A DNA stretch of 64,000 nucleotides, from contig DILV01000013.1 of NCBI GenBank assembly GCA_002425225.1, positions 1-64,000 on the forward strand. Reading direction: 5' to 3'. Source of the DNA: Thiothrix sp. UBA5583 (GTDB lineage: Bacteria; Pseudomonadota; Gammaproteobacteria; Thiotrichales; Thiotrichaceae). The notes beneath the pieces were generated by a model, which ran no database searches, was not told the DNA's origin, and saw only the letters and a list, made by a program, of their open reading frames with translations. The position numbers and the translations under genes are program-made. This document shows, piece by piece, positions 26,794 to 44,735 of the stretch (its first letter is position 1; every line of letters begins with the position of its first letter).

Positions 26794-27670
26794 TTTCTTC
26801 AATTTCTATAATGGTTTTTATATGTTGCTGTGCTTCTCGCATGATTTTTTCAGGGATAATGGTTGTCTTTTGTTTCCTGATTAATGCGTTCAAGTAAGGA
26901 ATGGGTGCAAGGTAGTCAAATGTGCTTTTTATAAAGAATGCTGAAGTTGCTTTTGCTAAATTTGACCATTGTTTATGATGAAGGAAAAAATTAATTTGAG
27001 AGTTAAGTAAATTTTTTCGGGTGGCAATGATTTTCCTTGGTTCTAAATGCCGTTGTCTATAAGCTAGTAAAACGTCATCCAAACAGTGAAATTGACTGTG
27101 AGCGGAGGTTCTTAACAAGAGTTCCTGATCTTCTACCCGTTTTACTTCCGGGATTTTGTAGAGGTTTTTTTTGAACCAACTCGCTTTTCCCATCCATGTC
27201 GGATGAGGCATGTAAATGGTGTTCCATAGATTTTTGGTGATTTCAGCATGAGACTGCTTGTAAGGTAATAATCCTGTGATACTGTAATCAGTATCTTTAA
27301 AGGCAATCGAACGAGTAGATAACAAGTCTATTTCTGAATGTTCTTCAAGGAATTTTATCTGCTTTTCAAATCTTAGCGGGAATGAAAAATCATCACCATC
27401 CATTCGAGCAATATATTTACCCCGAGCCAAAGCTACACCTTGATTAAGACGCATAGTCAATCCTTTGTTAACTTGGTCATGGATAATATGAATTCTATGG
27501 TCAGGAATAGATTTGACGATGCTCAGTGTTTGATCGGTTGACCCGTCTTCTAGTAATAAAATTTCAAAGTCCTGAAATGATTGATTAAATAATGAGTGAA
27601 GTGCAGAAAAAATGGTGTCTTGGCAATTATAAACTGGGAGTATTACTGTTAGTAATGGGGGAGCGCTCAA
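26786..27670 (-). CDS. Glycosyltransferase family 2
   Basis: This 294-residue GT-A enzyme has LLTVILPVYN, LLLEDGSTDQT and the DxD-type ARMDGDDFSFPLRF. It would transfer a sugar from a nucleotide donor at the cytoplasmic face; specificity is not evident. The start appears to be TTG at 27670, preceded by GGAAG, since no ATG precedes the conserved first strand. It is part of the AT-rich cassette. Confidence 0.85.
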   Translation of the reverse strand: MSAPPLLTVILPVYNCQDTIFSALHSLFNQSFQDFEILLLEDGSTDQTLSIVKSIPDHRIHIIHDQVNKGLTMRLNQGVALARGKYIARMDGDDFSFPLRFEKQIKFLEEHSEIDLLSTRSIAFKDTDYSITGLLPYKQSHAEITKNLWNTIYMPHPTWMGKASWFKKNLYKIPEVKRVEDQELLLRTSAHSQFHCLDDVLLAYRQRHLEPRKIIATRKNLLNSQINFFLHHKQWSNLAKATSAFFIKSTFDYLAPIPYLNALIRKQKTTIIPEKIMREAQQHIKTIIEIEENA

Positions 27671-27695
27671 GATTATTCTTCCAAAAACTTCTTAA

Positions 27696-28373
27696 TCATT
27701 GCAAAGGGCGACGAGCCAGCATATTGAGAGAGAAGAATTCTCCAAAGGGTTCATGTGATAAAGAGCCATCAACGGTTCCAGGGACAAAGTGTGGCTCATG
27801 CGGGTACTCTTCGCAGGCTTCATATCCTACAGATTCAAGTAAGTAAGAAAGCCATGTGGCATTAAAACCAGTTTTATGATGGTCATACTCGTTAACTTGC
27901 CCCCCGTAGATTAATCCAATCCACGGAGCGTTGCCTTTAGTGTGGAAGTGAGTAAGATTTTTCTGGTAAATACTTACAATGCGATCTATATCAGGGACGG
28001 AGATACGTAATATCCCCCCGGGTTGCAATATTTCAAACCAACGTTTCAGTATTGGTTGAATTTCATCGTGACTGAAATGTTCCAGTACATGACATGCATA
28101 GATTTCACTGGCACATCTGTCTGGAAAGTTACGAAGTTTGCGGATGTCATCAACAACATCGACAGCAACCGTGTGAAGTGCATCGACGTTACAAAATCCT
28201 TTGATTTTGATGTTGCCGCAACCTAAATGCAGACGATAGGGAGGCTGGTTTTGGTCCAGATAATTTGCTCTAGGGATCAGGGCAGCTTTGGTAGCGTTGA
28301 CTTTGTTAATAAGTGAATAAACAGCTTGTCGTTGTTGGACTGTCGTAATCTTTCTCAAAATTTGACGTAACAT
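27696..28373 (-). CDS. Class I SAM-dependent methyltransferase
   Basis: This 225-residue protein has the SAM-binding motif LHLGCGNIKIKG followed by an acidic strand end (NVDAL) and ACHVLEHFSHDEI, with LQPGGILRISVPD, a typical methyltransferase type 11 layout. It likely methylates a sugar or glycan intermediate. The target is unknown. It is AT-rich like its neighbours. Confidence 0.8.
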   Translation of the reverse strand: MLRQILRKITTVQQRQAVYSLINKVNATKAALIPRANYLDQNQPPYRLHLGCGNIKIKGFCNVDALHTVAVDVVDDIRKLRNFPDRCASEIYACHVLEHFSHDEIQPILKRWFEILQPGGILRISVPDIDRIVSIYQKNLTHFHTKGNAPWIGLIYGGQVNEYDHHKTGFNATWLSYLLESVGYEACEEYPHEPHFVPGTVDGSLSHEPFGEFFSLNMLARRPLQ

Positions 28374-28403
28374 GGGAAATTATCTCATAAATTTAAGCGG
28401 GTA

Positions 28404-29294
28404 TTAAAGTCTGACCCATGAATCTGGAATCAAATCTTTTGTACTTATTTGGGTGTTTGTATACCATTGCTTAGGGGCAATGACGATCTTCTGGGGGAAG
28501 TTTCCCAACCAAGCCCCCCACCAACTGAAAGAGCTGTTAGCAATAACAAAGTGTTTGCAAGCAGCCATCAGCCAAAGGTCTTCGTGTGCATTTTTTGAAT
28601 GGTTAATATCAACAATAGTTGTTGGGGTAGACCAACTAAAATTTTCCTTAACCCATTCAGGTTCATCAGAAAAAACAAAAATGTGAGTGTTTTTTTCTGC
28701 TTTTTCAATAAGAGATATGCCATTGTAATAGTATTGCAGATCGCAGCTTCCATGAAAGGCATTTGCTGTTGCGTTACTGATATAATCGCCTCGCCGTATA
28801 TGAATGCAAATAGCATTATGTTGCTTGATAGTCTCCAGCATCGCTTGGGAGTCTAAAGATAAAGCACGGGGTGTTCCTATTTCTTGACGGATGATATGAG
28901 CTATTTCGGTAAAATATTTTTCTGATTGCCAATAGCCATTTATCCATGAAGGTGGCTTGAGATTAATTATGTGAGGGTCAAAGTCAGGTTTTTTTTCATG
29001 GTGTATGTTAATTCCATCTTTTTTGAATGGAAAGTACTTCGTGATTTTCCTTAGCATTTTTCCAGCTATTCCTGGTAAATACTTATACTTTGAATCACAT
29101 TGTTGCACTTCGATATTAAGATTAAATGGCGTAAGTGCATACTCACGAGGTGTAGAGCCTTCTGGTGTATTTGTAAAATACGTTAAATCAAAGAACAGCA
29201 TGGCATTATTTTTATAGGCTATAGTTCTTCCTGCGGCATATTGAAAAAGTTGATTTCCTAGACCACCTTGCAAACTAACAACTATTTTATTCAT
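28404..29294 (-). CDS. Alpha-1,2-fucosyltransferase, GT11
   Basis: This 296-residue protein starts with the GT11 hallmark SLQGGLGNQLFQYAAGR and contains HIRRGDY at 165-171, the GDP-fucose-binding motif, and NSSFSWWGAWL near the C-terminus. It would add L-fucose in alpha-1,2 linkage. The donor GDP-L-fucose is made by Gmd and Fcl in the same operon, which supports the assignment. Acceptor unknown. Its ATG overlaps the upstream gene's stop by 4 nt. Confidence 0.92.
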   Translation of the reverse strand: MNKIVVSLQGGLGNQLFQYAAGRTIAYKNNAMLFFDLTYFTNTPEGSTPREYALTPFNLNIEVQQCDSKYKYLPGIAGKMLRKITKYFPFKKDGINIHHEKKPDFDPHIINLKPPSWINGYWQSEKYFTEIAHIIRQEIGTPRALSLDSQAMLETIKQHNAICIHIRRGDYISNATANAFHGSCDLQYYYNGISLIEKAEKNTHIFVFSDEPEWVKENFSWSTPTTIVDINHSKNAHEDLWLMAACKHFVIANSSFSWWGAWLGNFPQKIVIAPKQWYTNTQISTKDLIPDSWVRL

Positions 29295-30607
29295 GATGTC
29301 TTATTTTTGACCTGATGTGCGATTAAACTTATAAACAGGTTTTCGTATTTTTTATAGAGGGTGTCCCAGTTAAAGCTTTCTTGCGATGCCTTTTTTCCAG
29401 CTTGAGAGAGGTCTAATAGCTTTTGTTCGTTTTTAAGTAAATCTATAATGTACGCAGCTAATACTTCGGGGTTTACTCTGGTGTACCCCTTTTCATCAGT
29501 AGGAGCAGGGCAGATCTCCCCTCCGCCTGTCCATACGGTTATTTCTTTAGCATTGCCGACAGGAACGCTGATAAACGGTAGTCCTGCTGCACATGCTTCG
29601 TATAATACTAGCGGGGAGTATTCAATATTGGAAGCAAAAACAAAAATATCAGCGTTTAAGTAGGCTTGTATTAATTCCTGTCGGGGTAAATTACAAATGA
29701 TGACTTTATTGTCTGCTTGTTTGTTTGCATTTATACGCTCCAATGTCTTTTTGATTCTTAGTTGTAATCCAGTTTTTACTCCAAATCTAGCTAGCATTGT
29801 ACTGATTATGACTTTACCGGTAATGTACCATCCGTTTGTTTTTGCATAACCAGCAATGTATTTCCATAATTCTGAAATGGTTTTGCCTGTATGTTGAACT
29901 GGCATGGTGTTTCCATTCAATATCAAACTTGTATTTTTAAGCTGCTTGCTTATGATTTCAAATGCGCTTAGGATTTCAAGATGTCCTTTTGTTCCTGTAA
30001 ATGTTCCAACAGTCATGATAATTTTGGCATTTTCAGGAATATCCATTCGTTGTCGGAAGGTCTGGTCAGTTGCTACAGAAAATTCTGTAATATCAGCCCC
30101 GTTAGGAATAATGCTGAAATGATCTAGGTGATTCTGCTGCCCAAAAAAAAAGTCCCGATACTGCTCAGCATGGTAAATGATATGATCGAATTTTCTAAGA
30201 ATATCCGGGAGTTGTTTAAAATAATCTTTATATGCAGGGTCTTGTAGGCCAGAATATCCACAGGGAACAATAATTTTCTTTGCTTTGATCTGATCTAGAA
30301 TCGGCCATAATCCATCAAAAGTCCATTGCTGAGCCGCGTAAATGAAAATCAGATCGAATTTTGAGCTCAATACGAAATTTTGGTACTGGCTTAGTTCACC
30401 TTGTAATCCTCTGACATTATTGCCTGAAATAGAAAAAGAGAAAATATTAACCTGATTCCAGCTATTAAAATTTCTATTTTTTAGGGCGGTGGTGGCAATA
30501 CTGATGTCATGCCCCTGATGAGCAAAACGTTCTGCTAATTGGCGAACAACTTCTTGTACACCGCCAATACTTGGATAATAGAATTCTGCACAAAGTAGTA
30601 ATTTCAT
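29291..30607 (-). CDS. Glycosyltransferase family 4
   Basis: This 438-residue GT-B enzyme begins MKLLLCAEFYYPSIGGVQEVV. It has IIMTVGTFTGTKGHLEIL and FVFASNIEYSPLVLYEACAAGLP (the C-terminal nucleotide-sugar site). I chose the internal ATG at 30607, which gives an ATGA overlap with the upstream epimerase gene, over a longer frame starting at 30634. Sugar specificity is unknown. Confidence 0.85.
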   Translation of the reverse strand: MKLLLCAEFYYPSIGGVQEVVRQLAERFAHQGHDISIATTALKNRNFNSWNQVNIFSFSISGNNVRGLQGELSQYQNFVLSSKFDLIFIYAAQQWTFDGLWPILDQIKAKKIIVPCGYSGLQDPAYKDYFKQLPDILRKFDHIIYHAEQYRDFFFGQQNHLDHFSIIPNGADITEFSVATDQTFRQRMDIPENAKIIMTVGTFTGTKGHLEILSAFEIISKQLKNTSLILNGNTMPVQHTGKTISELWKYIAGYAKTNGWYITGKVIISTMLARFGVKTGLQLRIKKTLERINANKQADNKVIICNLPRQELIQAYLNADIFVFASNIEYSPLVLYEACAAGLPFISVPVGNAKEITVWTGGGEICPAPTDEKGYTRVNPEVLAAYIIDLLKNEQKLLDLSQAGKKASQESFNWDTLYKKYENLFISLIAHQVKNKTS

Positions 30608-31539
30608 GGTGTACTTTCTTTTACCCATTTCCACGTGGCAGCAAGTCCTTCTTCAAAACTTGTTTGCGAACGCCAACCAGAAATGTAGGTTAGTTTGGCG
30701 GCACTAAGTACATTGGAACTTACATCAAATGGGCGAAGGGGAAGTACTTCAATATCCAAAGAAAACCCATCAAGTTTAATATGATGATTGATCTTTTCTA
30801 GAATGGTGCGATTATCCATGCCTATCCCCGTACCTATATTATATATTTCACCGGGAATCCCATTCTCAAGAGCTGCTAGGATGCCTTCAACCAAGTCTTT
30901 TATATATATATAATCACGGATTGTCCCGCGTTCGCCAAACATTTTTACAGTTTTTTGTTTTTTTCCTGCAAATAATGCAGTTGATACAAACCCTTGACCA
31001 ATATTTCCCCGTTGCCCAGGGCCATAAGGGTTACTGGGGCGCACGATAAGTAACGGTAACGACTGAAAATGATGATACATTAGCCCATATTTTTCCGTGG
31101 CTAATTTTGTTATGCCGTATGGGGAGAGAGGATTGGTTGGGTGGGTTTCATCTATCGGTAATCTTAGTGGAGTTCCATATACCGTCCCGCCAGATGACAC
31201 CAACATAAATCGACGTAAAGATTTCTGGCTAGCTAGTTTTAGTAAATTGACAGTAAATGGCAAGTTTGCGCTAATATCTAAAATTGGGTCATCAAAACTA
31301 GTTTTTGGCACAGTCGCATAGGCTAGATCAATGACTTCATCACATTGATCCATGACTTGAGATAATCCTTCAAGATTTGAGGGGTCAATACATACGTATT
31401 CAATATTTTTGTTTATAAGTGTTTTTGGCTTTTCATGTCGTCCTGCAACAATAAGTTTTTTGTTGTTCCTTTTTAGAATCAGTTCTACAAGGTGGGAACC
31501 AATAAATCCTCCACCTCCTACAATTAAGCACTTGCTCAT
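30604..31539 (-). CDS. NAD-dependent epimerase/dehydratase (GalE-like)
   Basis: This 311-residue extended SDR has CLIVGGGGFIGSHLVE, LVSSGGTVYG and the catalytic YGITKLATEK. It also has RDYIYIKDLVEGI, typical of nucleotide-sugar 4-epimerases. Its product is not identifiable; a hexose or N-acetylhexosamine epimerase supplying one of the glycosyltransferases is likely. It follows the GT2 gene after a 6-nt gap. Confidence 0.8.
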   Translation of the reverse strand: MSKCLIVGGGGFIGSHLVELILKRNNKKLIVAGRHEKPKTLINKNIEYVCIDPSNLEGLSQVMDQCDEVIDLAYATVPKTSFDDPILDISANLPFTVNLLKLASQKSLRRFMLVSSGGTVYGTPLRLPIDETHPTNPLSPYGITKLATEKYGLMYHHFQSLPLLIVRPSNPYGPGQRGNIGQGFVSTALFAGKKQKTVKMFGERGTIRDYIYIKDLVEGILAALENGIPGEIYNIGTGIGMDNRTILEKINHHIKLDGFSLDIEVLPLRPFDVSSNVLSAAKLTYISGWRSQTSFEEGLAATWKWVKESTP

Positions 31540-31545
31540 CTATTC

Positions 31546-32514
31546 TTAATTCTGTTTTAATCGTCTGAGTAAATTGAGTATGGGGGCTGGAATCATTTTT
31601 CTTATCGCTTGTTTTTTGATGTGCGATAGTATGCGTTGGTAGTTACAGTTAAACTCGCTACTCCAAGCCGTGGGGGAGTCGCTGATTTTGTATGCTGCTT
31701 GCGCAAACATACTGATTGCGGTTTTCATCGATAATTGGGTAGAAGGGGTTGACACACCATGATAGAGTTTGCTCAAAAGCATAGATTGCTCTAATGTGTA
31801 TTGCTCTGATAATAAATAATGAATGTTTTCAGCAGATATTCGAATGACCTTTTCCTGAAATGGATTATTACTCGTGCGAGACATGCTACCTGCTACTTCC
31901 CTATAAGCAGTTAAAACTGAATCCAAATTCGCAATATTATATTGTTTAGCAAGACGCGACCATAATTCATAGTCTTCTGGTGGCTGGCGTGCAGGATCAA
32001 TGCAGTAACCACCAAGTTGTATCAGGGGGGCACGGCGTAATAGCATTGAAGAGTGCACAAAAGGGTTATCAAAAAGCAATATAAGTTGTAATGTTTTATT
32101 CTCAGTCGGGTGATGATGGTATCTTTTCGTAGGATTATTGTCTTGGCGTATTTCAGCCCAAGTTCCAACACCAGCATAGTCTGAGTGTTTATTAAGAAAT
32201 GAAATTTGTTTGGCAAGTCTTTCTGGATGCATCCAGTCATCTTGATCTTGTCGGGCAATAAAAGAACCCTGTGACAAATTTATGCCTCGGTTAAGCGTGG
32301 CTGCAAGCCCGATGTTATTTTGATGGTAAGCTTTGATTCGGATATCTGTGAAAGAACAAATAGTATCCCATGATTTATCTGTTGAACCATCGTTTATAAT
32401 GATAAGCTCAAAATCTTGGAATGTTTGATCTAAAACACATTGGATAGCATCTTTCAGCCAAACTTCGCCATTATAAACTGGTAAAATAACACTAATAAGA
32501 GGATGGAGATTCAT
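31546..32514 (-). CDS. Glycosyltransferase family 2
   Basis: This 322-residue GT-A enzyme has LISVILPVYNGEVWL, LIIINDGSTDKSW and ARQDQDDWMHPERL, the metal-binding region of GT2. The ATG at 32514 gives an ATGA overlap with the upstream gene and places the first strand directly after the start; a longer frame from 32547 is less likely. Substrates are unknown. Confidence 0.85.
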   Translation of the reverse strand: MNLHPLISVILPVYNGEVWLKDAIQCVLDQTFQDFELIIINDGSTDKSWDTICSFTDIRIKAYHQNNIGLAATLNRGINLSQGSFIARQDQDDWMHPERLAKQISFLNKHSDYAGVGTWAEIRQDNNPTKRYHHHPTENKTLQLILLFDNPFVHSSMLLRRAPLIQLGGYCIDPARQPPEDYELWSRLAKQYNIANLDSVLTAYREVAGSMSRTSNNPFQEKVIRISAENIHYLLSEQYTLEQSMLLSKLYHGVSTPSTQLSMKTAISMFAQAAYKISDSPTAWSSEFNCNYQRILSHIKKQAIRKMIPAPILNLLRRLKQN

Positions 32515-33266
32515 TGTAAATATTTTTTGAACCAGTAACAACCACAACCATAATGTTGTGAATCAATCATACTTTCAGGCGGGTTGATGATCAAACCAGT
32601 AGGCGCATCACCATCAGGAATAAGAGACATTTCAACCAATTCCATACCTGTAAAATAATTTATAAACTGTTGATTGTTGTAAACCCGATGGGCGTTAAAA
32701 CATATTCGTGCCTGTCCAACGGGAACTGCAACCAATAAATATCCTCCTGGTTTTACAACGCGTATCAGCTCATTGATAGCCTTGATGTCACCCTCAGGAT
32801 CTAATGGATCACCGTAACGCCCTAGACCTATATGTTCAAGAACATGCATACAGGACAAAGATTCTATGGAGTTTGTAGGCCAGTCTAAAGAAAGTAAGTC
32901 TGCGGATAAGCTTTCTAAACCGCTAAGGACTACAGGTGCTGGACGATAATCATAAAACTTTGTTTTGATAAATGCAGAAACGATTGTGCAAAAATGCAAA
33001 GTGGAAGATATGTCTACATGCAGATTTGGGGATATGCTAGCAAGGATACGAGCTGCCCATGCTGGATGGTAAATATAATGACGGTCAAACGCCGTTGTAA
33101 CTGTACTATCATTCAAGCAGGGATAACGGTCATTCCATATTGGGATGCGATTAATATTTTGTGTGTCACTAAGCTCAAGAAAATTTTCAAAATCTTGTTT
33201 AAATTTTTTGTGTGATTGTTGTGTTCTTATTATTTTTGATAATTTATTTTTGAGGTTTCTTAACAT
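32511..33266 (-). CDS. DUF268 family protein
   Basis: This 251-residue protein matches the DUF268 pattern: SMHVLEHIGLGRYGDPLD, KPGGYLLVAVPVG, FNAHRVYN, and a C-terminal YGCGCYWFKK. The middle part looks like a degenerate SAM methyltransferase fold (VLEHIGLG, PGGYLLVAVP). Family members often occur in polysaccharide clusters, and no biochemical activity is firmly known to me. It may be an O- or N-methyltransferase for the glycan. Confidence 0.8.
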   Translation of the reverse strand: MLRNLKNKLSKIIRTQQSHKKFKQDFENFLELSDTQNINRIPIWNDRYPCLNDSTVTTAFDRHYIYHPAWAARILASISPNLHVDISSTLHFCTIVSAFIKTKFYDYRPAPVVLSGLESLSADLLSLDWPTNSIESLSCMHVLEHIGLGRYGDPLDPEGDIKAINELIRVVKPGGYLLVAVPVGQARICFNAHRVYNNQQFINYFTGMELVEMSLIPDGDAPTGLIINPPESMIDSQHYGCGCYWFKKYLQ

Positions 33267-33291
33267 GGTTTTTTATTAATTGGATATTTAT

Positions 33292-33990
33292 TTAATTGAT
33301 TCTTTGTTCCCAAGAATCTTTATGTAAGAAAATAGTGTTGATATATGTATCAGCATAAGAAAAATAATTGTTTTCTTGCATTATTTCGAAAATTTCACTT
33401 ATTTTTCTGCTGCTTTTGTTTTGGGAGTATGTGAGTGTTTCTATGCAGAGTATGGGGGGAGGACATATGTTAAAATCCCAAGCTTCAAGTATGGCTAAGT
33501 CCATCCCCTCTACATCTAATGACACAAATGATGGTGGTGTTATTGGGAAATGTTTTTCCAATAAGGTATTTATATGAAGGTTTGGAACAGTTTCTTTGGC
33601 AATAATTTGATGTTCTGAAATTTGTTCATATAATTCGGCAGTAGATGCTTGAGTTGTATTTAATGTATCAGATGACATTTCGTAAAAGGAAATACTTTCT
33701 TGATGAGAAGAGCTTATTGCTGCTCTCAAAAAAATATCATGAGGACGTTTTTTTTTGATAACATCCGCAATTTTTGTATCTGGCTCAACGAGAATACCGC
33801 TGAAACCGAGTTTATAGAAGTAATATGTGTTATTTAGGTTGATTGGGTGATTGGTTCCAATGTCTAAATAAGAAAAGTCGGTTAAGCCAAGCCACTGTCG
33901 TAAGAAATCAATAATTAAGTCTTCTCCACATTGTGAATAACTAACTTTTTTATGAACATTGTTCTTAAATATTCGATTGAGGATTTTCAT
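33292..33990 (-). CDS. FkbM family methyltransferase
   Basis: This 232-residue protein has SYSQCGEDLIIDFL, FSYLDIGTNHP (SAM-binding motif I), ILVEPD and VSLDVEGMDLAIL, the signature of FkbM-type O-methyltransferases. It is one of several methyltransferases in the operon. Its ATG overlaps the downstream GT2 reading frame, and it is strongly AT-rich. Target hydroxyl unknown. Confidence 0.85.
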   Translation of the reverse strand: MKILNRIFKNNVHKKVSYSQCGEDLIIDFLRQWLGLTDFSYLDIGTNHPINLNNTYYFYKLGFSGILVEPDTKIADVIKKKRPHDIFLRAAISSSHQESISFYEMSSDTLNTTQASTAELYEQISEHQIIAKETVPNLHINTLLEKHFPITPPSFVSLDVEGMDLAILEAWDFNICPPPILCIETLTYSQNKSSRKISEIFEIMQENNYFSYADTYINTIFLHKDSWEQRIN

Positions 33991-34862
33991 AAAAGATTCT
34001 TTAATGTTTTTCTGAGTAAACCAATAGTTAATGGCAGTGCGATTGGCTTTTTTGAGGTTTTGAGAGCGTACAAAATACTGTTAATATTGTCTGATGTGGA
34101 TAAATTACAGGCTATTTCTCTAAAATAGCTTGACAGATGTTTGCCGGCAACGTCATATACATAGTATTTGTTGAATAAGTCTATGTTTTCTTGTGCAGAC
34201 AAAAGTTTATTTTTTTCACATAAACGAGAAAGCTGCTCTTTTGAGTTGGTTGTGATATTTACTGTCGGTTTATCAATGTATTTAAAGCTAATATTCTTGG
34301 TTAAAAGTATGTTTAAATAGTATTCGGTATCTGCTACCCATGTAAACTTGGGGTCGAATGGTTTATGGACTTCCTTTCTTACTGCAATTACACTTGGTGA
34401 GCCCACTAAGTTACCCCAGAGTAAAACCATTGGATTTTCTTCAACTATTTTAAGGTCTTTTTCGCTTATAGAATGATAAAACAAAAAGTTTTCTTTTTCC
34501 CCTACTGCGTTACACGCAGAAAAAGTAATGTCGCATTCTCTGTCAATAATTGATTTCGTTGTTTCTATAAGACTTAAATCTGTTGTAAACCAATCATCGT
34601 GATGTAAGATTTTAATGATGTTTCCTTCGGCAAAGGAAATGGATTCATTCCAGTTTTTTACTGCTCCAAGACGCCGCTTGTTTTTGATGTAACGAATTCT
34701 TTTGTCTTTTGTCTTTAGTAAGAGCGAGTTTTTTTGCTCGCTATCATCTGTAATAATTATTTCAAATAAGCACTCTTTCTGTATAAGTATTGATTCAATA
34801 GCTCGCTGAAGTAATTCAGGCTGTTGATAAGCAGGAATACAAACTGAAATGAGATTTGGCAT
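33987..34862 (-). CDS. Glycosyltransferase family 2
   Basis: This 291-residue GT-A enzyme has LISVCIPAYQQPELLQRAI, EIIITDDSEQ and ILHHDDWFT, the GT2 acidic motif. It is among the most AT-rich genes of the window; the line 34201-34260 contains 17 G/C of 60. Its start overlaps the upstream methyltransferase stop by one base (TAATG). Donor and acceptor unknown. Confidence 0.83.
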   Translation of the reverse strand: MPNLISVCIPAYQQPELLQRAIESILIQKECLFEIIITDDSEQKNSLLLKTKDKRIRYIKNKRRLGAVKNWNESISFAEGNIIKILHHDDWFTTDLSLIETTKSIIDRECDITFSACNAVGEKENFLFYHSISEKDLKIVEENPMVLLWGNLVGSPSVIAVRKEVHKPFDPKFTWVADTEYYLNILLTKNISFKYIDKPTVNITTNSKEQLSRLCEKNKLLSAQENIDLFNKYYVYDVAGKHLSSYFREIACNLSTSDNINSILYALKTSKKPIALPLTIGLLRKTLKNLL

Positions 34863-35689
34863 TAAAATAATTTTCTAATCGATGACTTTAGATTTATTAT
34901 AAGTTGTTTTGTTAGTCTGTATATTAATGCTTTTGAACCATGATCGCCTACTTGATGACTATTAATCTCAGATGTTATTGTGTTTTTTTGTGCGAAAATC
35001 AAGAATTGGTAAGCGGTTAGATATTGATCGTTTCTGTTTGTAATGGCTAATAATATGTTTTCCCATGCATAGCGGAAAGATATTTTGCTGGGAAAGGTGA
35101 ATTGGTTAAGAATAAAAGCTTTTGTGATATTTAATTTGGCCGAGAATAGTATTTCATTTAAAGTTTTAAATGTAAAAAAACGTAAATGTGTACTCTCTAA
35201 TATTCCGGATTTTGTATATTGAAAATAGCCTCGCATTAATGATAATCGTATGGAAAAGTGTGCAATGTTAGGTGTGCTGATTAAGAAGCGAGCATTTGGT
35301 TTGGCATGATCGCTGAGTAAATGTAATATCTCATCTGGATATGGAAGATGTTCAATTACATCAGCGAGAATAAACCAATCATACTGTGCTAAATCATTCT
35401 TTGCTATGAAATCTTCAATGTTGGTCTGATAAGTTTTTCTGTAATAGGCATGTGGAAAGTTACCTTCAGGCAATGAAGGGTCAAGTCCATCGATAACTAT
35501 TCCACTTTTGTTTTGTAATAATTTCCCTAAGATACCACTGCCACATCCAATATCCAGGACAATACCATGATCAATAATTGAGTGTATTTGATTAAGTGGA
35601 TTACAAGGATCAGATAAGATCCAAGATACTAAGCTTGGATCTTCTGTGTAAGTTTCTGACGATCTTTTTAGGATACTGCTATACTGCAT
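34862..35689 (-). CDS. Class I SAM-dependent methyltransferase
   Basis: This 275-residue protein has GIVLDIGCGSGILGKLL (SAM motif I), DWFILADVIEHLPYPDEIL and LISTPNIAH, as in glycan-associated methyltransferases. The only good start is ATG 35689 (a TTG precedes it by three codons); no clear Shine-Dalgarno is seen. Target unknown. Confidence 0.8.
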   Translation of the reverse strand: MQYSSILKRSSETYTEDPSLVSWILSDPCNPLNQIHSIIDHGIVLDIGCGSGILGKLLQNKSGIVIDGLDPSLPEGNFPHAYYRKTYQTNIEDFIAKNDLAQYDWFILADVIEHLPYPDEILHLLSDHAKPNARFLISTPNIAHFSIRLSLMRGYFQYTKSGILESTHLRFFTFKTLNEILFSAKLNITKAFILNQFTFPSKISFRYAWENILLAITNRNDQYLTAYQFLIFAQKNTITSEINSHQVGDHGSKALIYRLTKQLIINLKSSIRKLF

Positions 35690-35748
35690 TTTTAACAATA
35701 ATTTCTGTGACTACTGAGTATTCATGGATAATTATGAATTTGGAACTG

Positions 35749-36579
35749 TTATTTTGTACGTTTCCAGTATACTCCAGTACCATCTATTTCTTTGATTTCA
35801 TCAGTTATATGGTGTTCTTTTCTGAAGTCATGAACAGCTTGTGAGCAGTTTGGCAGACAGTAGTCATCAATAATGATATAGCCACCAACAGAAAGTAGTG
35901 GATATAAATTAGTCAATGCATCCATTGTTGACTCATACATGTCGCCATCCAAACGTAATATAGCTAGTTGTTTGATGCCGGAATTAGGGAGTGTGTCTTT
36001 GAACCATCCTTTCAGAAAAACAACCTGAGAATCTAATAAGTCGTATGCTTGAAAGTTTTTTTGAACACTCTCTAATGAGACTTTCAGAAAATCATAGGTG
36101 TAATGTGTATCACCAATATCTTGTGGATATTTTTCTGTGTTTGGTTTTGGCAGGCCTTCAAAAGAGTCTGCAACCCAGACTTGACGGTCGGTGATATTGA
36201 ATGTTTTTAATACACCTCTCATGAAGATAACAGAGCCTCCACGCCAAACACCTGTTTCGATGAAATCTCCAGGTATCTCTTGTTCAAGGACGTCTAGGAT
36301 ACAGCTTTCTAGGTTATTGAGCCTCTTTATTCCAATCATGGTGTGCGCATCTTCAGGCCAATCTTGACCAAACTCACGTTTTTGATAATCACAAGGAGCT
36401 GGAATAATTACTCGTGAAGCTGGTGGTAAGAGTTTGGATAATAATTTGCCTTTGATTCCTGTTGGAGTCATGGTTTGCCACTCTTCATGCCCATGTACCC
36501 AGTTGGTTAAGGTCTTTTTTAGTAAATCCAAGTAAATTTTCTGGCTGTGATTACAGCTAATTTTCATTTGATTTTCCAT
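35749..36579 (-). CDS. TylF/MycF family O-methyltransferase
   Basis: This protein has the TylF pattern: PGDFIETGVWRGGSVIFMRG, VWVADSFEGLP, RLDGDMYESTMDAL and YIIIDDYCLPNC, with the Asp residues that bind Mg2+ and SAM. Family members methylate sugar hydroxyls (macrocin and mycinamicin pathways) and many polysaccharides. The start is uncertain: ATG 36579 gives 276 residues and overlaps wzt by 23 nt, ATG 36567 overlaps by 11 nt. Its location directly after wzt makes it a candidate chain-capping methyltransferase. Confidence 0.85.
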   Translation of the reverse strand: MENQMKISCNHSQKIYLDLLKKTLTNWVHGHEEWQTMTPTGIKGKLLSKLLPPASRVIIPAPCDYQKREFGQDWPEDAHTMIGIKRLNNLESCILDVLEQEIPGDFIETGVWRGGSVIFMRGVLKTFNITDRQVWVADSFEGLPKPNTEKYPQDIGDTHYTYDFLKVSLESVQKNFQAYDLLDSQVVFLKGWFKDTLPNSGIKQLAILRLDGDMYESTMDALTNLYPLLSVGGYIIIDDYCLPNCSQAVHDFRKEHHITDEIKEIDGTGVYWKRTK

Positions 36580-37819
36580 GTAAAAGGGGTTGAGTATTAT
36601 TAAATTCAAAGTTCAAATCCATATACCCCCAGTCGGGAAGTCTTTCTATATGAAATGAAGTCGTATTACTAAGAATGGAAAATGTTGCGCAATGCTTAAC
36701 ACTATCGAGCGTCTCACCTTGGAATATAATGCTTGCACTAATTAAGTATCTTCCTGGAGTTAATGCTGGATTGTTAATTGTGCAGTGTGCATTTATTTCC
36801 TCATTAATGACTTTTGGTTTGAAATCTACCCAAGATGATAATAATGTGGCAACTCTAGTGCCGTCTTCTGCGTCAATGCCAAATGCAATTTGCATATCTG
36901 TTCGATGTTGTAGTTTTTTTTCTATATGTATTTTTATTGTTATATTGATTTGATTGTTTTCTTGGATGATGGCTTCTATGTTCGTTATTTTGGCATCTCC
37001 ACTTCCACCACGACCTGAGTTATTTTCTATGGAAAAGATTCTTTCTTTAGAAATATCAAGATATATATTTCTGGCATCATGTACGCTGCCATCAAAAAAC
37101 ATACGCCCTTTGTTTAAAACAATTCCTCTGTTACATAGAGAGGTCATAGCATTCATGTTGTGTGTGACAAACAATACTGTTCTGCCTGATTGATTTAAAC
37201 TTTCCATTTTGCCAAGGCATTTATTTTGAAACTGGATATCTCCTACAGCAAGTACTTCATCAATAATGAGAATGTCGGAATTTAAATGTGCGGCTACAGA
37301 AAAAGCCAAACGCATATACATTCCGCTGGAGTATCTTTTTACGGGAGTGTCAAGGAATTTTTCTATTTCTGCAAAAGAAACAATTTCATCAAATTTTTGA
37401 TTAATATCACGCTTGGACATGCCAAGAATTGCACCATTTAGGAAAATATTTTCTCTGCCTGTTAACTCTTGGTTAAACCCTGTGCCTACTTCCAGTAGGC
37501 TGGAAATTCGTCCATGAATTTGAATTTTTCCAGAGGTTGGTTCTGTTATGCGAGAAAGTATCTTTAATAATGTTGATTTTCCTGCGCCATTATGCCCGAT
37601 GATTCCGACACGCTCTCCTGTTTTGATTTTAAACTCAATATCACTCAAAGCGAAAAATTCTTCATATGCTTGTTCTTCTGCAAACGTATTATTGAGGCGT
37701 TTTTTCCATTGAGCTATTTTTTGGGGTATTATGTCTCTGATAGTGCGATATTGTTCTATTTTTGCATGGCTAATGACGTATTTTTTTGATAGATTTTCAA
37801 CTTTAATGGTGACGCACAT
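36557..37819 (-). CDS. wzt: Polysaccharide ABC exporter ATP-binding protein with C-terminal domain
   Basis: Wzt powers export of lipid-linked O-antigen or capsule through Wzm. The 420-residue protein has Walker A GHNGAGKST at 75-83, signature RYSSGMYMRL at 162-171, and Walker B LIIDEVLAVGD at 185-194. Residues from about 260 to 410 form a beta-rich extension, as in Wzt proteins that recognise a modified non-reducing chain end. It starts 2 nt after wzm. The extended type implies a chain-end signal, consistent with the nearby methyltransferases. Confidence 0.9.
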   Translation of the reverse strand: MCVTIKVENLSKKYVISHAKIEQYRTIRDIIPQKIAQWKKRLNNTFAEEQAYEEFFALSDIEFKIKTGERVGIIGHNGAGKSTLLKILSRITEPTSGKIQIHGRISSLLEVGTGFNQELTGRENIFLNGAILGMSKRDINQKFDEIVSFAEIEKFLDTPVKRYSSGMYMRLAFSVAAHLNSDILIIDEVLAVGDIQFQNKCLGKMESLNQSGRTVLFVTHNMNAMTSLCNRGIVLNKGRMFFDGSVHDARNIYLDISKERIFSIENNSGRGGSGDAKITNIEAIIQENNQINITIKIHIEKKLQHRTDMQIAFGIDAEDGTRVATLLSSWVDFKPKVINEEINAHCTINNPALTPGRYLISASIIFQGETLDSVKHCATFSILSNTTSFHIERLPDWGYMDLNFEFNNTQPLLHGKSNEN

Positions 37820-37821
37820 AA

Positions 37822-38646
37822 TTATATTACATCCGCGAATTTTTTCTCTGTCATGCGAAAGTATTTGATGCCAAAAATAAGTAGAATTGCAGTTATACCT
37901 ATAGAAATGCTTATATTGATGGGATCTATTTTATGATCACCTCCAAGGATTGCCCATCTGAAACCATCGATAACGCCAACCATTGGATTAAGAGCATAGA
38001 GGTATTTCCACTGCTCAGGGATAATGCTGGAAGTAAAGCCGACAGGAGATAAAAATAAGCCTAACTGAATGATAAAAGGAATAATGTGCCTAAAATCTCG
38101 GTACGTGACATTTAAGGCGGCAAGAAAAATTGATAAACCGAGAGAAACGCTAATAGCAAGAAAAATGAAAAATGGTAAAAAAATGACCTGCCATGGGGGA
38201 GAGTGCTGATATGCAAACATCAATAAACACAGAATAATAAGAGACAGTAATAAATCAACTAGACAAACACCTATAGCGCTCACTGGAATAAGTAATCGAG
38301 GGAAGTAAACCTTGGATATAAGATTGGAGTTTGTTATCAGGCTATTACCAGCATCATTCAACGCTGTTGCAAAAAAAGTCCAAGGTAATAAAGCTGCAAA
38401 AACCATTATAGGATAGGGAGCCTCTCCTGATGGAAGATTTGCAATTTTGCCAAATATAATGCTAAAAACAATCATGGTGAGTACTGGGCGTATTACAGCC
38501 CAGGCAATACCGATAACAGTTTGTTTATAACGAACCAATATATCTCGCCACGCCAAGAAATAAAGCAATTCTCGATAGTTCCATATGTCTTGCCAGTAAC
38601 GCTGTTCTGTTTTACCAGCTTCAATAACTAAATATGGTTTTGTCAT
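37822..38646 (-). CDS. wzm: Polysaccharide ABC exporter permease
   Basis: This 274-residue ABC-2 type permease has about six hydrophobic helices and the family motifs YRELLYFLAWRDILVRYKQT at the N-terminus, NPMVGVIDGFRWAILG near residue 230. With Wzt it moves the complete lipid-linked glycan across the inner membrane. Its ATG overlaps the fcl stop by 4 nt. It is AT-rich, unlike fcl and gmd upstream, so the composition shift falls at this boundary. Confidence 0.9.
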   Translation of the reverse strand: MTKPYLVIEAGKTEQRYWQDIWNYRELLYFLAWRDILVRYKQTVIGIAWAVIRPVLTMIVFSIIFGKIANLPSGEAPYPIMVFAALLPWTFFATALNDAGNSLITNSNLISKVYFPRLLIPVSAIGVCLVDLLLSLIILCLLMFAYQHSPPWQVIFLPFFIFLAISVSLGLSIFLAALNVTYRDFRHIIPFIIQLGLFLSPVGFTSSIIPEQWKYLYALNPMVGVIDGFRWAILGGDHKIDPINISISIGITAILLIFGIKYFRMTEKKFADVI

Positions 38647-39572
38647 GTTGTTTGCTTCAAGAAGTCACGGGCGGTAAGTTTTATCCCTATTACTAGTGAA
38701 GTGTTGTAACACCAACCACATTGTTTCAGTAAAGAAACATCCAACACCTTCCGCATAGTCCCATCCGGCTTACTCGCATCAAACACAAGTCGTCCTTCAA
38801 ACCCAACTACATCCATGATGGTTTCCGCCAGCTCCCGAATCGTTACATCTTGCCCCGTGCCAACATTCAGCAATGACCCTGCATAACCCTTTTCCATCAA
38901 AAATACGCAGGCATCCGCCAGATCATCTACGTACAAAAATTCGCGCCGGGGTGTACCCGTTCCCCACACTACCAGTTCCTTGTCACCGCGCAGTTTTGCC
39001 TCATGTGCTTTGCGCAACAGGGCAGGTAGGACATGGCTGGTTTCCAGATCATAGTTGTCATTCGGGCCATAAAGATTGGTCGGCATGACACTCACATACT
39101 GTCGCCCGTACTGTGTGTTATATGCCTCACACAATTTGATTCCGGCAATCTTCGCAACCGCATACGGCTCATTGGTGCATTCCAGTGAGCCGGTCAGCAA
39201 GTATTCTTCCTTGATCGGTTGCGGGCAATCACGCGGATATATGCAACTGCTGCCAAGGAACATCAGGCGTTGCACCCCGGCGAGATGAGCACCATGAATC
39301 AGGTTCGCTTCAATCATCAGATTCTGATAGATGAAATCAGCGCGGTAGGTATTATTTGCGTTAATTCCACCGACTTTGGCAGCAGCGATAAAGATGTAAT
39401 CCGGCTTTTCTTCCTGAAGGAATTGCTGAACAGCAGCTTGATTTAGTAAATCCAGTTCTGAGCGGGTACGGGTCAAAATGTTGGTGTAACCACCTGCTTG
39501 CAGGCGGCGCACCAAGGCACTACCAACCATACCCCGATGCCCGGTCACAAATATTTTCGCGTCTTTATTCAT
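38643..39572 (-). CDS. fcl: GDP-L-fucose synthase
   Basis: Fcl (WcaG) epimerises and reduces GDP-4-keto-6-deoxymannose to GDP-L-fucose with NADPH. Motifs are [49 protein letters not shown] (catalytic Tyr/Lys) and [13 protein letters not shown] 39572, inside the last codons of gmd (8-nt overlap), starts the conserved MNKDAKIF sequence, giving 309 residues; a longer frame exists. It provides donor for the GT11 fucosyltransferase. Confidence 0.94.
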
Positions 39573-40662
39573 GGTAATTGAATGTTCCAAAGCCATGATT
39601 CTTTACCAGTTCATCACGTTGGGCGGCTTTAAAGTCTTCCTGTACCATTTCTTGTACCAGTTCGGCGAAGCTGATTTTAGGTGTCCAGCCCAGTTTGGAT
39701 TTGGCATTGGAGGGGTCGCCCAATAATGTTTCAACTTCTGTCGGGCGGAAATAACGGGGATCAACCGCAACAATGCACTTGTCAGTGGCAGCGTCGTAGC
39801 CTTTTTCTTCCACGCCGTGGCCTTCCCAGCGTATGCTCATACCCAGTTCCTTGGCAGCAATTTCCACAAATTCACGCACACTGTATTGCACACCAGTTGC
39901 AATCACGAAATCTTCCGGCTGCTCCTGTTGCAGCATCAACCATTGCATTTCCACGTAATCGCGGGCGTGTCCCCAGTCGCGCTTGGCATTCATGTTGCCA
40001 AGGTAAAGGCAGTCTTGCAGACCCAGCTTGATGCGTGCCAAGGCGCGAGTGATTTTGCGGGTGACGAAAGTTTCCCCCCGGATCGGGCTTTCATGGTTGA
40101 ACAGAATGCCGTTGCAGGCATACATGCCATAGGCTTCCCGGTAGTTTACTGTAATCCAGTAAGCATACAGTTTGGCGACAGCATAAGGGCTGCGCGGATA
40201 AAACGGGGTGGTTTCCCGCTGCGGAATTTCTTGTACCAAGCCAAATAGTTCCGAGGTAGATGCCTGATAAAAACGAGTTTTCTTCTCCAGACCTAGGATA
40301 CGGATGGCTTCCAGGATGCGCAACGCGCCCAAAGCGTCCGAATTGGCGGTGTATTCAGGTTCTTCAAAGCTGACAGCAACGTGGCTTTGTGCTGCCAGAT
40401 TATAGATTTCATCCGGTTGTACTTGTTGAATGATGCGGATCAGGCTGCTGGAGTCGGTCAAATCGCCGTGATGCAGGATAAACTTGCGTTCAGTTTCATG
40501 CGGATCCTGATAAAGGTGATCAATCCGATCGGTATTGAACAGGGAGGTGCGGCGCTTGATGCCATGAACAACATAGTCTTTGTTCAGAAGGAATTCGGCG
40601 AGGTAGGCTCCATCCTGTCCGGTGATGCCTGTTATCAGCGCAACCTTATTATTTGTTTCCAT
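39565..40662 (-). CDS. gmd: GDP-mannose 4,6-dehydratase
   Basis: Gmd converts GDP-mannose to GDP-4-keto-6-deoxymannose. The 365-residue SDR has [40 protein letters not shown], and [15 protein letters not shown] (Tyr/Lys catalytic pair), then [19 protein letters not shown]. It is directly followed by fcl. Its GC-rich codon use matches the housekeeping genes, unlike the downstream cassette. Confidence 0.96.
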
Positions 40663-40688: not shown

Positions 40689-42116
40689 TTAATGGGTGCG
40701 CCCGTAGGCATCTTCAAACCGGACAATATCATCTTCCCCTAAATAACTGCCTGATTGTACTTCAATGATTTCCAGGGGAACCTTGCCAGGATTACTCAGG
40801 GAATGCATTTCTCCCAGTGGAATGTAGGTCGACTGGTTTTCTGTCAGTAGCAGGGTTTTGTCACCACAACGCACTTCGGCAGTGCCGCTAACGACAATCC
40901 AGTGTTCGGCGCGGTGGTAGTGTTTTTGCAATGACAGCTTGGCGCCGGGTTTGACGACAATACGTTTGACCTGAAAACGTTGTCCCACATCAATGCAATC
41001 ATACGTGCCCCATGGACGGTTGACTTCACGGTGCAGGTTGGCTTCCTGACGCTGCAGGTGATTAAGCTGCCCGACAATGTGTTTGACATCCTGTACCTGA
41101 TCGCGGTGTGCCACCAGCGTGGCATCCTTGGTTTCCACTACTACCAGATTGTCGACCCCAACCAGTGTGACCAAGCGGTGTTCTGCGTAGACCAGATTGT
41201 TTTGTGCCTGATGGGTAAGGGTGTCGCCATGCAGTACATTGCCTTGGTCATCCTGCTGGCTGACTTCCCATACCGCTGACCACGCACCAACATCATTCCA
41301 GTGTGCATCCAGCGGGATGACGACGGCATCGGCAGTTTTCTCCATGACCGCATAGTCAATGGAAATGGAGGGACAGGCGGTAAAAGCTGCCTGATCCAGC
41401 CGGATAAAATCAATGTCATGGCTGGGATGTGCCAGTGCAGCCCGACAGTTGCTTACTATGTCTGGATGGTATTTCGTTAGTTCCGCCAGTAAGCGGTCGA
41501 CCCGGAACAGGAACATGCCGCTATTCCACAGGTATTCACCACTGTCAACATAACGGTTGGCTGTTGCCGCATCGGGCTTTTCCACAAAGGCAGCAACCCG
41601 CTTGGCAGTGATGTCGTCCAATGTTGCGCCTTGGCGGATATAGCCATACCCGGTTTCCGCTCGCAGGGGAACAATGCCGAAAGTTGCCAGATAGCCCGCA
41701 GCGGCTGCCTGTGCCGCGTGCTGGATAGCCTGATGGAATACAGGTATATCCTGGATGACATGATCGGCAGGCAATAATAGCATCAAGGCATTAGTCTTGC
41801 CTTGTGCTTCCAGATACAGGGCTGCCAGGGCAATGGCGGGTGCAGTATTGCGCCCAACAGGCTCCAGCAGAATACCCTGATGGGGAATGTTCAGGCTATG
41901 TAACTGTTCTGCCACCATGAAACGGTGTTCTTCATTGCATACGATCACTGCGTGGTCGAGCTGTGGAATCCCCTGCAAGCGCAGGAGAGTGCTTTGGAAT
42001 AGGGTTTGCTCACTGACCAGCGGGAGAAACTGTTTCGGGCGTAACTGACGGGACAAGGGCCACAAACGTGTACCAGAGCCTCCAGATAAAATGATGGGAA
42101 TGATGGTAGCAGTCAT
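40689..42116 (-). CDS. manC: Mannose-1-phosphate guanylyltransferase / mannose-6-phosphate isomerase
   Basis: This 475-residue bifunctional enzyme makes GDP-mannose and can interconvert fructose-6-P and mannose-6-P. The N-terminal transferase has [16 protein letters not shown] and [10 protein letters not shown]; the C-terminal cupin isomerase domain has [12 protein letters not shown] and [16 protein letters not shown] with the metal-binding His residues. It overlaps manB by 4 nt. It feeds gmd and any mannosyltransferases. Confidence 0.95.
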
Positions 42117-43498
42117 TTTGGGGGGTACTCCGTTGTTATCAACTGCCCAATTTCCTGAGTTTTTTGTTGCATAAGAAGAATATCTGCACGGCTCTCCACG
42201 TTGAGGCGCAGTACGGGTTCGGTGTTGGAACCACGCAGGTTAAAACGCCATGTATCGAATTCCATGCTCAAACCATCCGTGTCATCAACGACACAAGGCA
42301 GCTTCCCGGAATAGTGTGTGCGGATGGCAGTGATGGATGCCTGTGTATCGTGGACGTGGAAATTGATCTCGCCACTACATGGATAACGCTGAATACGTGC
42401 ATTGACCAGGGCTGAAAGCGGCTGGTTTTTCATGCTCATCAGTTCCGCCACTAGCAACCAAGGAATCATGCCGCTGTCGCAGTAGGCAAAATCACGGAAA
42501 TAATGATGAGCGCTCATTTCCCCGCCATAAACGGCATTTTCCTGCCGCATCCTCTCTTTGATGAAAGCGTGTCCGGTTTTGGACTGGATGGGTTCACCGC
42601 CAGCCGACCTGACAATATCTTGTGTATTCCAGGTCAGACGTGGGTCGTGAATGATTTTTGCGCCTTTGTGCTGTTGCAGGAAGGCTTCTGCCAGCAAACC
42701 AACAATATAGTAGCCTTCAATGAACTCCCCGTTTTCGTCAAACAGGAAGCAGCGGTCGAAATCACCATCCCAGGCAATACCCATATCTGCTTGATGGGCA
42801 ATGACTGCGTTGCGTGTATCCGCACGGTTTTCCGGCAACAAGGGATTGGGGATACCATGCGGGAATGTGCCATCAGGCTCATTGTGCAGCTTGATGAAAG
42901 TGATCGGCACGTTGGCTTGCTGGAATGCCTGTTCCAGTGCATCCACGACATGACCGGCTGCGCCATTGCCAGCATTGACCACCAGTTTTAACGGCTTGAG
43001 TCTGAATACATCAATGTAACCAAGCAAATGTTGGATGTAGGCAAGGAGACAGGACTGTTGGGTATAAGTGCCGCGACCTGTCACGACCGGGAAGTTGTTG
43101 TCTTCTGCCAGCCGTTGAATATCTTTCAGCCCACTGTCGCCACTGATGGGCTTGGCGTCTTCCCGCACCAGCTTCATGCCGTTGTAATCCATCGGGTTAT
43201 GGCTGGCGGTGACTTCAATACCACCATCAACACCCAAATGGAAGGTGGCGAAATAGACTTCTTCGGTACCTGTCAGGCCAAGGTCAATCACATGGATGCC
43301 GGAATCCATCAAACCATTTGCCAGTGACTGTTTCAGGGCAGGGGAAGTTAACCGGACATCAGCGCCAACAACGACGGTTTTACCATTCCCCAGTATGAGA
43401 CCGTAAGCCCGTCCAATACGATAAGCAATCGCTTCGGTCAGTTCCGTGTCCAGTTTGCCGCGAATGTCGTAGGCTTTAAAACAGGTCAGATTGTTCAT
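42113..43498 (-). CDS. manB: Phosphomannomutase
   Basis: ManB (CpsG) converts mannose-6-P to mannose-1-P for ManC. The 461-residue alpha-D-phosphohexomutase has [11 protein letters not shown], the phosphoserine loop [14 protein letters not shown], the Mg-binding loop [14 protein letters not shown], and the phosphate-binding [15 protein letters not shown] 43498 overlaps the ugd stop as ATGA. Activity on glucose phosphates is also possible in this family. Confidence 0.94.
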
Positions 43499-44664
43499 CA
43501 ATCACTACCAAACAAATCCCGCGTATAAACCTTCCCCGCCATATCCCGAATCTCATCCGTCATCCGGTTGGCAACGATCACATCGCTCATCTGCTTGAAG
43601 GCTTCGAGATTACGGATTACTGCTGAGCGGAAAAACGTTTCCTCCTCCAGCACCGGTTCATATACCACCACATCAATGCCTTTGGCTTTGATGCGTTTCA
43701 TGATCCCCTGAATGGAGGATGCCCGGAAATTGTCCGAGCCGGATTTCATGATAAGCCGGTAAATCCCCACCACACGTGGGTTCCGCTTGATAATGCTGTC
43801 AGCAACGAAATCCTTGCGGGTGCTATTGGCATCCACAATCGCCCGGATCAGGTTTTGTGGTACTTCGCTGTAGTTTGCCAGCAACTGCTTGGTATCTTTC
43901 GGCAAGCAGTAACCACCATAGCCAAACGACGGGTTGTTGTAATGGTTGCCGATACGCGGATCAAGGCAGACACCTTCGATAATCTGGCGTGAATCCAGTT
44001 CGTGGGTGGCGGCATAAGTATCCAGTTCATTGAAATACGCTACCCGCATGGCAAGAAAGGTATTGGCAAACAGCTTGATGGCTTCTGCTTCGGTCGCGTC
44101 GCTAAACAGGGTTGGAATACCCTGTTTCAATGCGCCTTCTTGTAGTAAGCGGGCAAAGGTTTGTGCGCGTTCGGAGCGTTCACCAATCACGATGCGTGAC
44201 GGATACAGGTTATCGTACAGGGCTTTGCCTTCGCGCAGGAATTCCGGCGAAAAAATGATATTTTGGGTGTTGAACTGCTGACACACTCGTTGCGTGTAAC
44301 CGACAGGAACGGTCGATTTGATCACCATGACGGTCTGCGGATTGATGGTCAATACATCCCGGATAACCGCTTCCACTGATGCAGTATTGAAATAATGTGT
44401 TTCGGCGTCGTAATCGGTCGGGGTGGCAATGACGACAAAATCCGCGCCCTGATAGGCATCCTGCTTGTCCAGCGTTGCCCGAAAATTCAGGTCATCACGT
44501 TGCAGAAAGGCTTCAATCTCGGTGTCAACGATAGGCGATTGCCTGGCGTTAAGCAGGGCAACCTTTTCCGGGATGATGTCGAGTGCCACCACTTCATGAT
44601 GTTGCGCTAATAACATGGCGTTGGAAAGGCCGACGTAGCCCGTTCCGGCAACTGCAATTTTCAT
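43498..44664 (-). CDS. ugd: UDP-glucose 6-dehydrogenase
   Basis: Ugd oxidises UDP-glucose twice with NAD+ to UDP-glucuronate. The 388-residue protein has the Rossmann motif [33 protein letters not shown], and the catalytic Cys in [14 protein letters not shown]. It is the first gene of the 23-kb minus-strand polysaccharide operon and is preceded by an ops/JUMPstart core. AAGGA lies about 12 nt before its ATG. It supplies glucuronate to the glycan, or to lipid A or capsule modification. Confidence 0.95.
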
Positions 44665-44705: not shown

Positions 44706-44717
44706 CACGCTACCGCC
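44706..44717 (-). promoter_or_regulatory. ops/JUMPstart element (RfaH recruitment site)
   Basis: On the minus strand this reads GGCGGTAGCGTG, identical to the core of the ops element in enterobacterial LPS, capsule and haemolysin operons. There, RNA polymerase pauses and loads RfaH, which suppresses Rho and internal polarity. It lies 42-53 nt upstream of the ugd ATG, in the expected leader position and orientation for the long polysaccharide operon. Confidence 0.8.
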
Positions 44718-44729
44718 CTACCGCGTAGC

Positions 44730-44735
44730 AGTATA
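44730..44735 (-). promoter_or_regulatory. Putative -10 box of the polysaccharide operon
   Basis: TATACT on the minus strand, five of six consensus bases, lies 12 nt upstream of the ops core, so ops would be at the very start of the transcript. No good -35 is seen. An inverted repeat GCCGA-ATA-TCGGC at 44743-44755 sits just upstream and could be an operator. Confidence 0.4.

Follow-up and report, generated by a model that had tools for sequence, protein, structure and literature searches.

An exact copy of the ops element heads a long polysaccharide operon in the 64,000-nucleotide stretch of Thiothrix sp. UBA5583 DNA analysed here (hereafter the window), and we consider it very probable that this element is a working ops of a Thiothrix RfaH system that extends the known one. 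Our reading builds on the exact element itself, an rfaH gene in the same genome, a second ops-headed polysaccharide operon, and the genus-wide enrichment of ops and its placement outside open reading frames (ORFs). Environmental sulfur bacteria would thus have an RfaH/ops regulon of their own, with an unchanged ops and with most of the known protein contacts changed. By analogy with E. coli, the single RfaH encoded elsewhere in the genome would bind the non-template strand exposed at ops while RNA polymerase, having started a few nucleotides upstream as a TATACT hexamer suggests, pauses during transcription of the element; RfaH would then exclude NusG and ride the polymerase through the 23 to 25 kb of the AT-rich operon, limiting Rho-dependent polarity. 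Promoter activity, pausing, RfaH binding, and antitermination at the window ops, like RfaH action at any ops site considered below, are predictions from sequence.

An earlier note on this DNA had described an exact ops core on the transcribed strand 42 to 53 nt upstream of ugd with a TATACT just ahead of it, and coordinates and sequence agree with both descriptions (Table 1): the ATG of ugd lies at 44664, which sets the distance, and the hexamer is found 12 nt before the element, where it may serve as a −10 box. The promoter consensus scan found no good −35 partner for this TATACT and scored another pair instead (window 44796-44768). The combined ops/JUMPstart label given to the element stands for the ops core, which is an exact 12-mer, and is not supported for the full JUMPstart RNA (RF01707), which was the only Rfam match at the window ops (E up to 1) and scored below threshold at 21.4 bits (E 0.53) against a gathering cut-off of 35. 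Together with other ugd-headed and epimerase-headed sites, the window ops belongs to a leader family of 19 rows, the second of two families discussed here. Between recC and ugd, just upstream of the putative promoter, a hairpin (GCCGATATTCGGC) followed by a T-rich stretch resembles a terminator (window 44755-44743, minus strand).

Table 1. Features of the ops leader and the polysaccharide gene run in the window.
Feature	Position	Strand	Basis
−10-like TATACT, 12 nt before ops (putative promoter)	44730..44735	-	sequence inspection
decamer abutting ops upstream, 8/10 bases as in the Thiotrichaceae consensus GACACGGTAG	44718..44727	-	consensus comparison
exact ops element GGCGGTAGCGTG	44706..44717	-	exact match
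ugd-like UDP-glucose/GDP-mannose dehydrogenase, first gene	43498..44664	-	Pfam
phosphoglucomutase/phosphomannomutase (PGM/PMM)	42113..43501	-	Pfam
ManC-like nucleotidyltransferase / mannose-6-phosphate isomerase	40689..42116	-	Pfam
GDP-mannose 4,6-dehydratase	39565..40662	-	Pfam
NAD-dependent epimerase (GDP-fucose synthase-like by position)	38643..39596	-	Pfam
Wzm-like ABC-2 permease	37822..38646	-	Pfam
Wzt-like ABC ATPase with Wzt C-terminal domain	36557..37819	-	Pfam
13 genes for glycosyltransferases, methyltransferases, a DUF268 domain, and sugar epimerases, covering the greater part of the AT-rich region	24725..36609	-	Pfam, GC
fused glycosyltransferase-4 (GT4) / Polysacc_synt_2 protein, last clear polysaccharide gene	21772..24732	-	Pfam
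ABC-F-like ATPase, maybe outside the operon	20036..21700	-	Pfam

The 12-mer is the sole exact copy in the window, which holds 9 ops-like matches with at most two mismatches (4.3 expected). It might be a chance match, since exact copies do arise by chance (39 in RfaH-negative genomes), but only 0.006 (first-order Markov) to 0.011 (genus-wide reversed-pattern rate) chance copies are expected on both strands of 64 kb, and its placement, the decamer upstream, the second operon, and the genus-wide pattern speak against coincidence, which we regard as highly improbable.

The element lies in the leader of a long operon. Closely spaced minus-strand ORFs fill the 22.9 kb between 44664 and 21772, and counting the ABC-F-like gene moves the end to 20036; this same-strand run of 23 to 25 kb overall and the Pfam names of its genes bear out the polysaccharide operon of about 23 kb proposed earlier. 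The AT-rich middle assigned to it is likewise apparent in 2-kb bins, with a GC content of 0.335-0.394 at 26-38 kb and 0.456 at 38-40 kb compared to 0.51-0.58 in the other bins between 18 and 48 kb. The product class predicted from these genes is a surface polysaccharide of the ABC-transporter type. The only other exact ops of the genome (contig 34) has its first base 63 nt upstream of the GTG start codon of a wecA-like gene, after which come genes for an RmlC-like epimerase, an oxidoreductase, a nucleotidyltransferase, an epimerase, glycosyltransferases, a flippase, and a Wzz/tyrosine-kinase-like protein, so that a search for further copies ahead of surface operons, as the earlier note had advised, finds this sole second exact copy at the head of another polysaccharide operon.

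Two NusG-family genes are encoded in the genome, the housekeeping NusG (224.4 bits, TIGR00922) and a separate paralogue that exceeds the cut-off of the RfaH equivalog TIGR01955 (155.2 vs 144.5 bits) and barely attains that of NF006534 (124 of 124). An RfaH above its curated cut-off is therefore present apart from NusG, and the case that would have told against the proposal, a genome with no RfaH or NusG paralogue, does not apply. When this protein was searched against solved structures, the best matches were chains named RfaH, which we take to be E. coli RfaH. Its gene is flanked by a short-chain dehydrogenase gene on one side and an ABC transporter gene on the other (judged by eye from the translations); being unlinked to the operon, it would therefore act in trans. 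An RfaH-type protein of at least 133 bits is found in all 16 Thiothrix genomes, and the curated cut-off is passed in 11 of them. In the wider comparison, 54 of 144 genomes count as RfaH-positive at 130 bits or more, and the next match listed, a truncated one in G128 (68.3 bits), was tallied as RfaH-negative in the counts below yet is among the 11 rfaH-ops genomes described further on. As the earlier note had remarked, ops is best known outside the Thiotrichales, and no paper combining RfaH with Thiothrix was among the literature matches listed.

With the reversed pattern as control, the 16 Thiothrix genomes hold 64 exact ops compared to 11 reversed copies (binomial p 1.6e-10). The other members of the family with RfaH hold 20 vs 11 (p 0.075) and class-level genomes with RfaH 24 vs 20, a pooled excess of 44 vs 31 outside Thiothrix that is not significant (p 0.083), and the enrichment in counts is therefore secure only within the genus. 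RfaH-negative relatives show no excess at all (39 vs 74). The evidence from context is stronger than that from counts: the share of ops sites that lie inside an ORF of at least 120 amino acids is 11/66 rows in the genus (64 sites, two listed twice), 5/20 in RfaH-positive members of the family, 12/24 in RfaH-positive genomes of the class, and 19/19 in RfaH-negative ones, the last set comprising one site per genome from 37 class-level sites. An AG directly precedes ops in 55/66, 16/20, 10/24, and 1/19 of the same rows, respectively, and one of the two family-level RfaH-negative sites is inside an ORF.

The leaders themselves are conserved as well. The decamer preceding ops matches the consensus GACACGGTAG at an average of 7.3 positions over 47 non-redundant Thiotrichaceae sites, compared to 2.3 at a control offset. 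At 22 of these 47 sites a NATRCT hexamer, a motif picked after inspection of the sites, ends 12-21 nt before ops (shuffled mean 1.4, maximum 7); it occurs 0-3 times in windows farther upstream. A generic search for −10 boxes (A2, T6, and a minimum of 4/6) gives a modest excess of 22 vs 10.5, the largest of 500 shuffles reaching 24. If NATRCT is the −10 box, ops would start at about +5 to +15 of the transcript.

Polysaccharide operons are not the only setting of ops in Thiothrix. Of the 64 sites, 28 (class B; L130, L137, L165, and 25 others) form one homologous promoter-ops leader family, outside which the window site falls, and at most of them ops is followed by an attI-like stretch ending in AAACTGTT and then by varied genes. 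At L165, the order is ops, an integron integrase in antisense, the attI-like site, and cassettes with 84-nt attC repeats. Of two attC finders built on textbook core sites, the first returned no attC and the second one palindromic match; the repeats were first seen by repeat search, and a covariance model was then built from 23 copies, the fold having 12 pairs and no compensatory changes. This model matches at 21 of the 28 class B sites, always downstream and in ops orientation (at L120 as a 29-bit match near ops), and at none of 28 non-class-B sources, a set that includes the window and leaves out L092, L111, L113, L117, and L118. With scoring limited to 150 candidates in each genome, it finds at least 240 attC in 15 of the 16 Thiothrix genomes and none in the genome of the window. 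When 150 listed attC were grouped into 50 clusters by a 15-kb rule, 25 had ops or its position-12 variant (14 exact, 11 variant) no more than 10 kb upstream in the same orientation, and none had it there on the opposite strand; past the cluster tails, a single same-strand ops was seen and no opposite-strand one. The model had been trained beside exact ops, and without the ten clusters that hold training copies (hand count) the figure is 15/40.

Starting from the integrase gives a view chosen independently of ops. An integron integrase above cut-off is present in 13 of the 16 genus genomes (23 matches in all), and at 9 of 13 full-length loci examined the 11-mer GGCGGTAGCGT, with position 12 free, follows the integrase stop by 5-24 nt in antisense, amid non-coding flanks that vary. 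The genome of the window is one of the nine, with GGCGGTAGCGTT beside its integron integrase on contig 21. The 11-mer is absent past the 3' end of the integrase at L173, L179, L180, and L181. The main integrase of G009 and that of G005 have lost the 11-mer, and all three listed attC clusters of each of these genomes are among the 25 without ops. Two further observations concern repeats: three equal-scoring integron integrase genes are spaced by 4,482 bp in G010 (contig 2, 3154819-3164715), where another pair, from 2266577 onward, shows the same interval, and G009 (contig 1, 1571032-1571799) carries six copies of AGCGGTAGCGTG at multiples of 108 bp, apparently a tandem repeat.

Because ops or its position-12 variant heads half of the listed attC clusters, integron cassettes are probably part of the RfaH regulon as well, though with less certainty than the polysaccharide operons. 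We moderately favor a model in which Thiothrix RfaH/ops drives chromosomal cassette arrays besides polysaccharide operons: a promoter with ops past the 3' end of the integrase would read antisense through the integrase into attI and the cassettes, and RfaH would sustain the polymerase over arrays of up to tens of kb with phage-defence genes among their content. Alternatively, ops at the integron leaders may only have been inherited with a repeated leader and lie idle there, which we consider possible but doubtful. In favor of this reading, the 28 leader sites all belong to one homologous family and, having been collected by exact match, are invariant by construction; the signal is also lacking at half of the listed clusters and at 4 of 13 full-length integrase loci. 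The reading does not, however, sit well with an 11-mer kept at 9 of 13 integrase ends while the flanks vary, nor with exact ops beside diverged integrases (51% and 45% identical) in two genomes of other genera. Of these two, L246 (another family) carries ops on the strand opposite to the integrase, 61 nt beyond the match; at L245 (same family), ops flanks the integrase at its other end and is directed away from it. The attC model gave no matches in 29 sources outside Thiothrix, so any integron link beyond the genus rests on these two loci.

With regard to cassette content, strong PADLOC matches were obtained for first cassettes at 6 of 9 sites in a first set mostly picked by Pfam hints of defence and a single weak match in a second set of ten; "defence islands" would be an overstatement. 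Other class B first cassettes start with transposase or recombinase genes. Like chromosomal integrons with a Pc promoter such as the Vibrio superintegrons, several related loci combine an integrase, an attI-like site, and an attC array. They differ in having ops or its position-12 variant at half of the listed clusters and, at 9 of 13 integrase loci, a signal that lies past the 3' end of the integrase and reads antisense into it. A Vibrio study (PMC11014356) gives as the general model that cassette expression drops with distance from Pc. It nevertheless describes promoters within cassettes that lack a gene, an array of which most is not silent, and an assay in which inhibiting Rho changed little; all three findings call for caution over a role of antitermination. 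The integron link bears on how distal cassettes are expressed in long, mostly promoterless chromosomal arrays, for which an antiterminator loaded at the array head would, if true, be a simple answer that predicts rfaH-dependent cassette expression. By title and start of abstract, none of the papers retrieved joined RfaH with integron cassettes, none among the matches listed joined integrons with NusG, and a search for integron antitermination with cassette-array transcription found none. The papers listed for Thiothrix and integron cassettes dealt with environmental resistance, and the word "integron" is absent from a 2020 paper on RfaH evolution (PMC7593976).

Outside Thiothrix, 11 genomes carry ops 81-760 nt after an rfaH match on the same strand (about 0.008 expected), five from the same family and six from other families, one of these with the truncated rfaH match (loci L189, L190, L193, L195, L198, L218, L042, L223, L222, L031, and L221). 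Several of these loci have an extra ORF of about 200 amino acids between rfaH and ops, and in a twelfth genome ops lies 3.2 kb past rfaH. According to the literature consulted, E. coli RfaH acts in trans on ops, and recruitment of locally encoded NusG paralogues is unknown or, for monomorphic RfaH (preprint), independent of ops. The modules resemble local paralogues such as UpxY, TaA, Shewanella CL7 RfaH, and monomorphic RfaH in that rfaH directly precedes an ops-marked leader; unlike these paralogues, which are described there as sitting within or beside their own operons, the local rfaH of these relatives precedes an exact ops. Together with the integron leaders, these modules make the Thiothrix system a variant worth testing.

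Features in common with E. coli are a leader with the same 12-mer ahead of a surface-polysaccharide operon that is long and AT-rich, an unlinked rfaH presumed to act in trans, and the autoinhibition residues E48, I93, and F130, all kept in the RfaH of the window genome. The Thiothrix system differs in the decamer upstream of ops and in a JUMPstart score below the Rfam cut-off, in the putative position of ops only about 5-15 nt into the transcript, and in the contact surface of the protein. The E. coli side chains listed as touching ops in the excerpted text of Zuber et al. (PMC5995543) are K10, H20, R23, and R73; the RfaH of the window genome has K, N, K, and L at these positions, so only K10 is kept. 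Among the 17 of 30 RfaH loci that could be parsed by motif (the window's included), K10 is present in 16, H20 in 3, R23 in 5, and R73 in 4, alongside Q24 in all 17, E48, F130, and L142 in 16 each, and I or V at position 93 throughout. In the AlphaFold2 model of a 79%-identical relative (L225), pLDDT is below 50 over residues 120-176, too low to judge whether the C-terminal domain has the alpha-helical, fold-switching form. An identical ops with altered contact residues thus pairs an unchanged DNA signal with a changed contact surface, a natural variant pair that makes the way in which RfaH reads ops testable.

These substitutions would also fit an element that is no more than a promoter-proximal consensus pause unused by RfaH, as would the match of the ops core to the consensus pause in the same excerpt (PMC5995543) and a predicted start so close to ops that the polymerase would pause almost as soon as it sets out. 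We nevertheless judge this unlikely: the integrase ends keep the bases that matter according to that excerpt for RfaH and not for pausing (G4, G5, A7, and G8) and leave free G12, on which the U11 pause depends, in line with the excerpt's report that G12C abolishes the U11 pause and not RfaH recruitment. Furthermore, ops enrichment tracks RfaH in the data for the genus and the family, and 11 genomes have the two side by side as rfaH and ops. Among the remaining sites in relatives, L097, L131, and L141 carry tandem or repeated ops upstream of genes that include ugd-like ones, the copies being separated by 69 nt to several kb. Finally, at L101 and L117 an exact ops is followed within 40 nt by an ORF with a Pvc16_N domain, which belongs to contractile injection structures.
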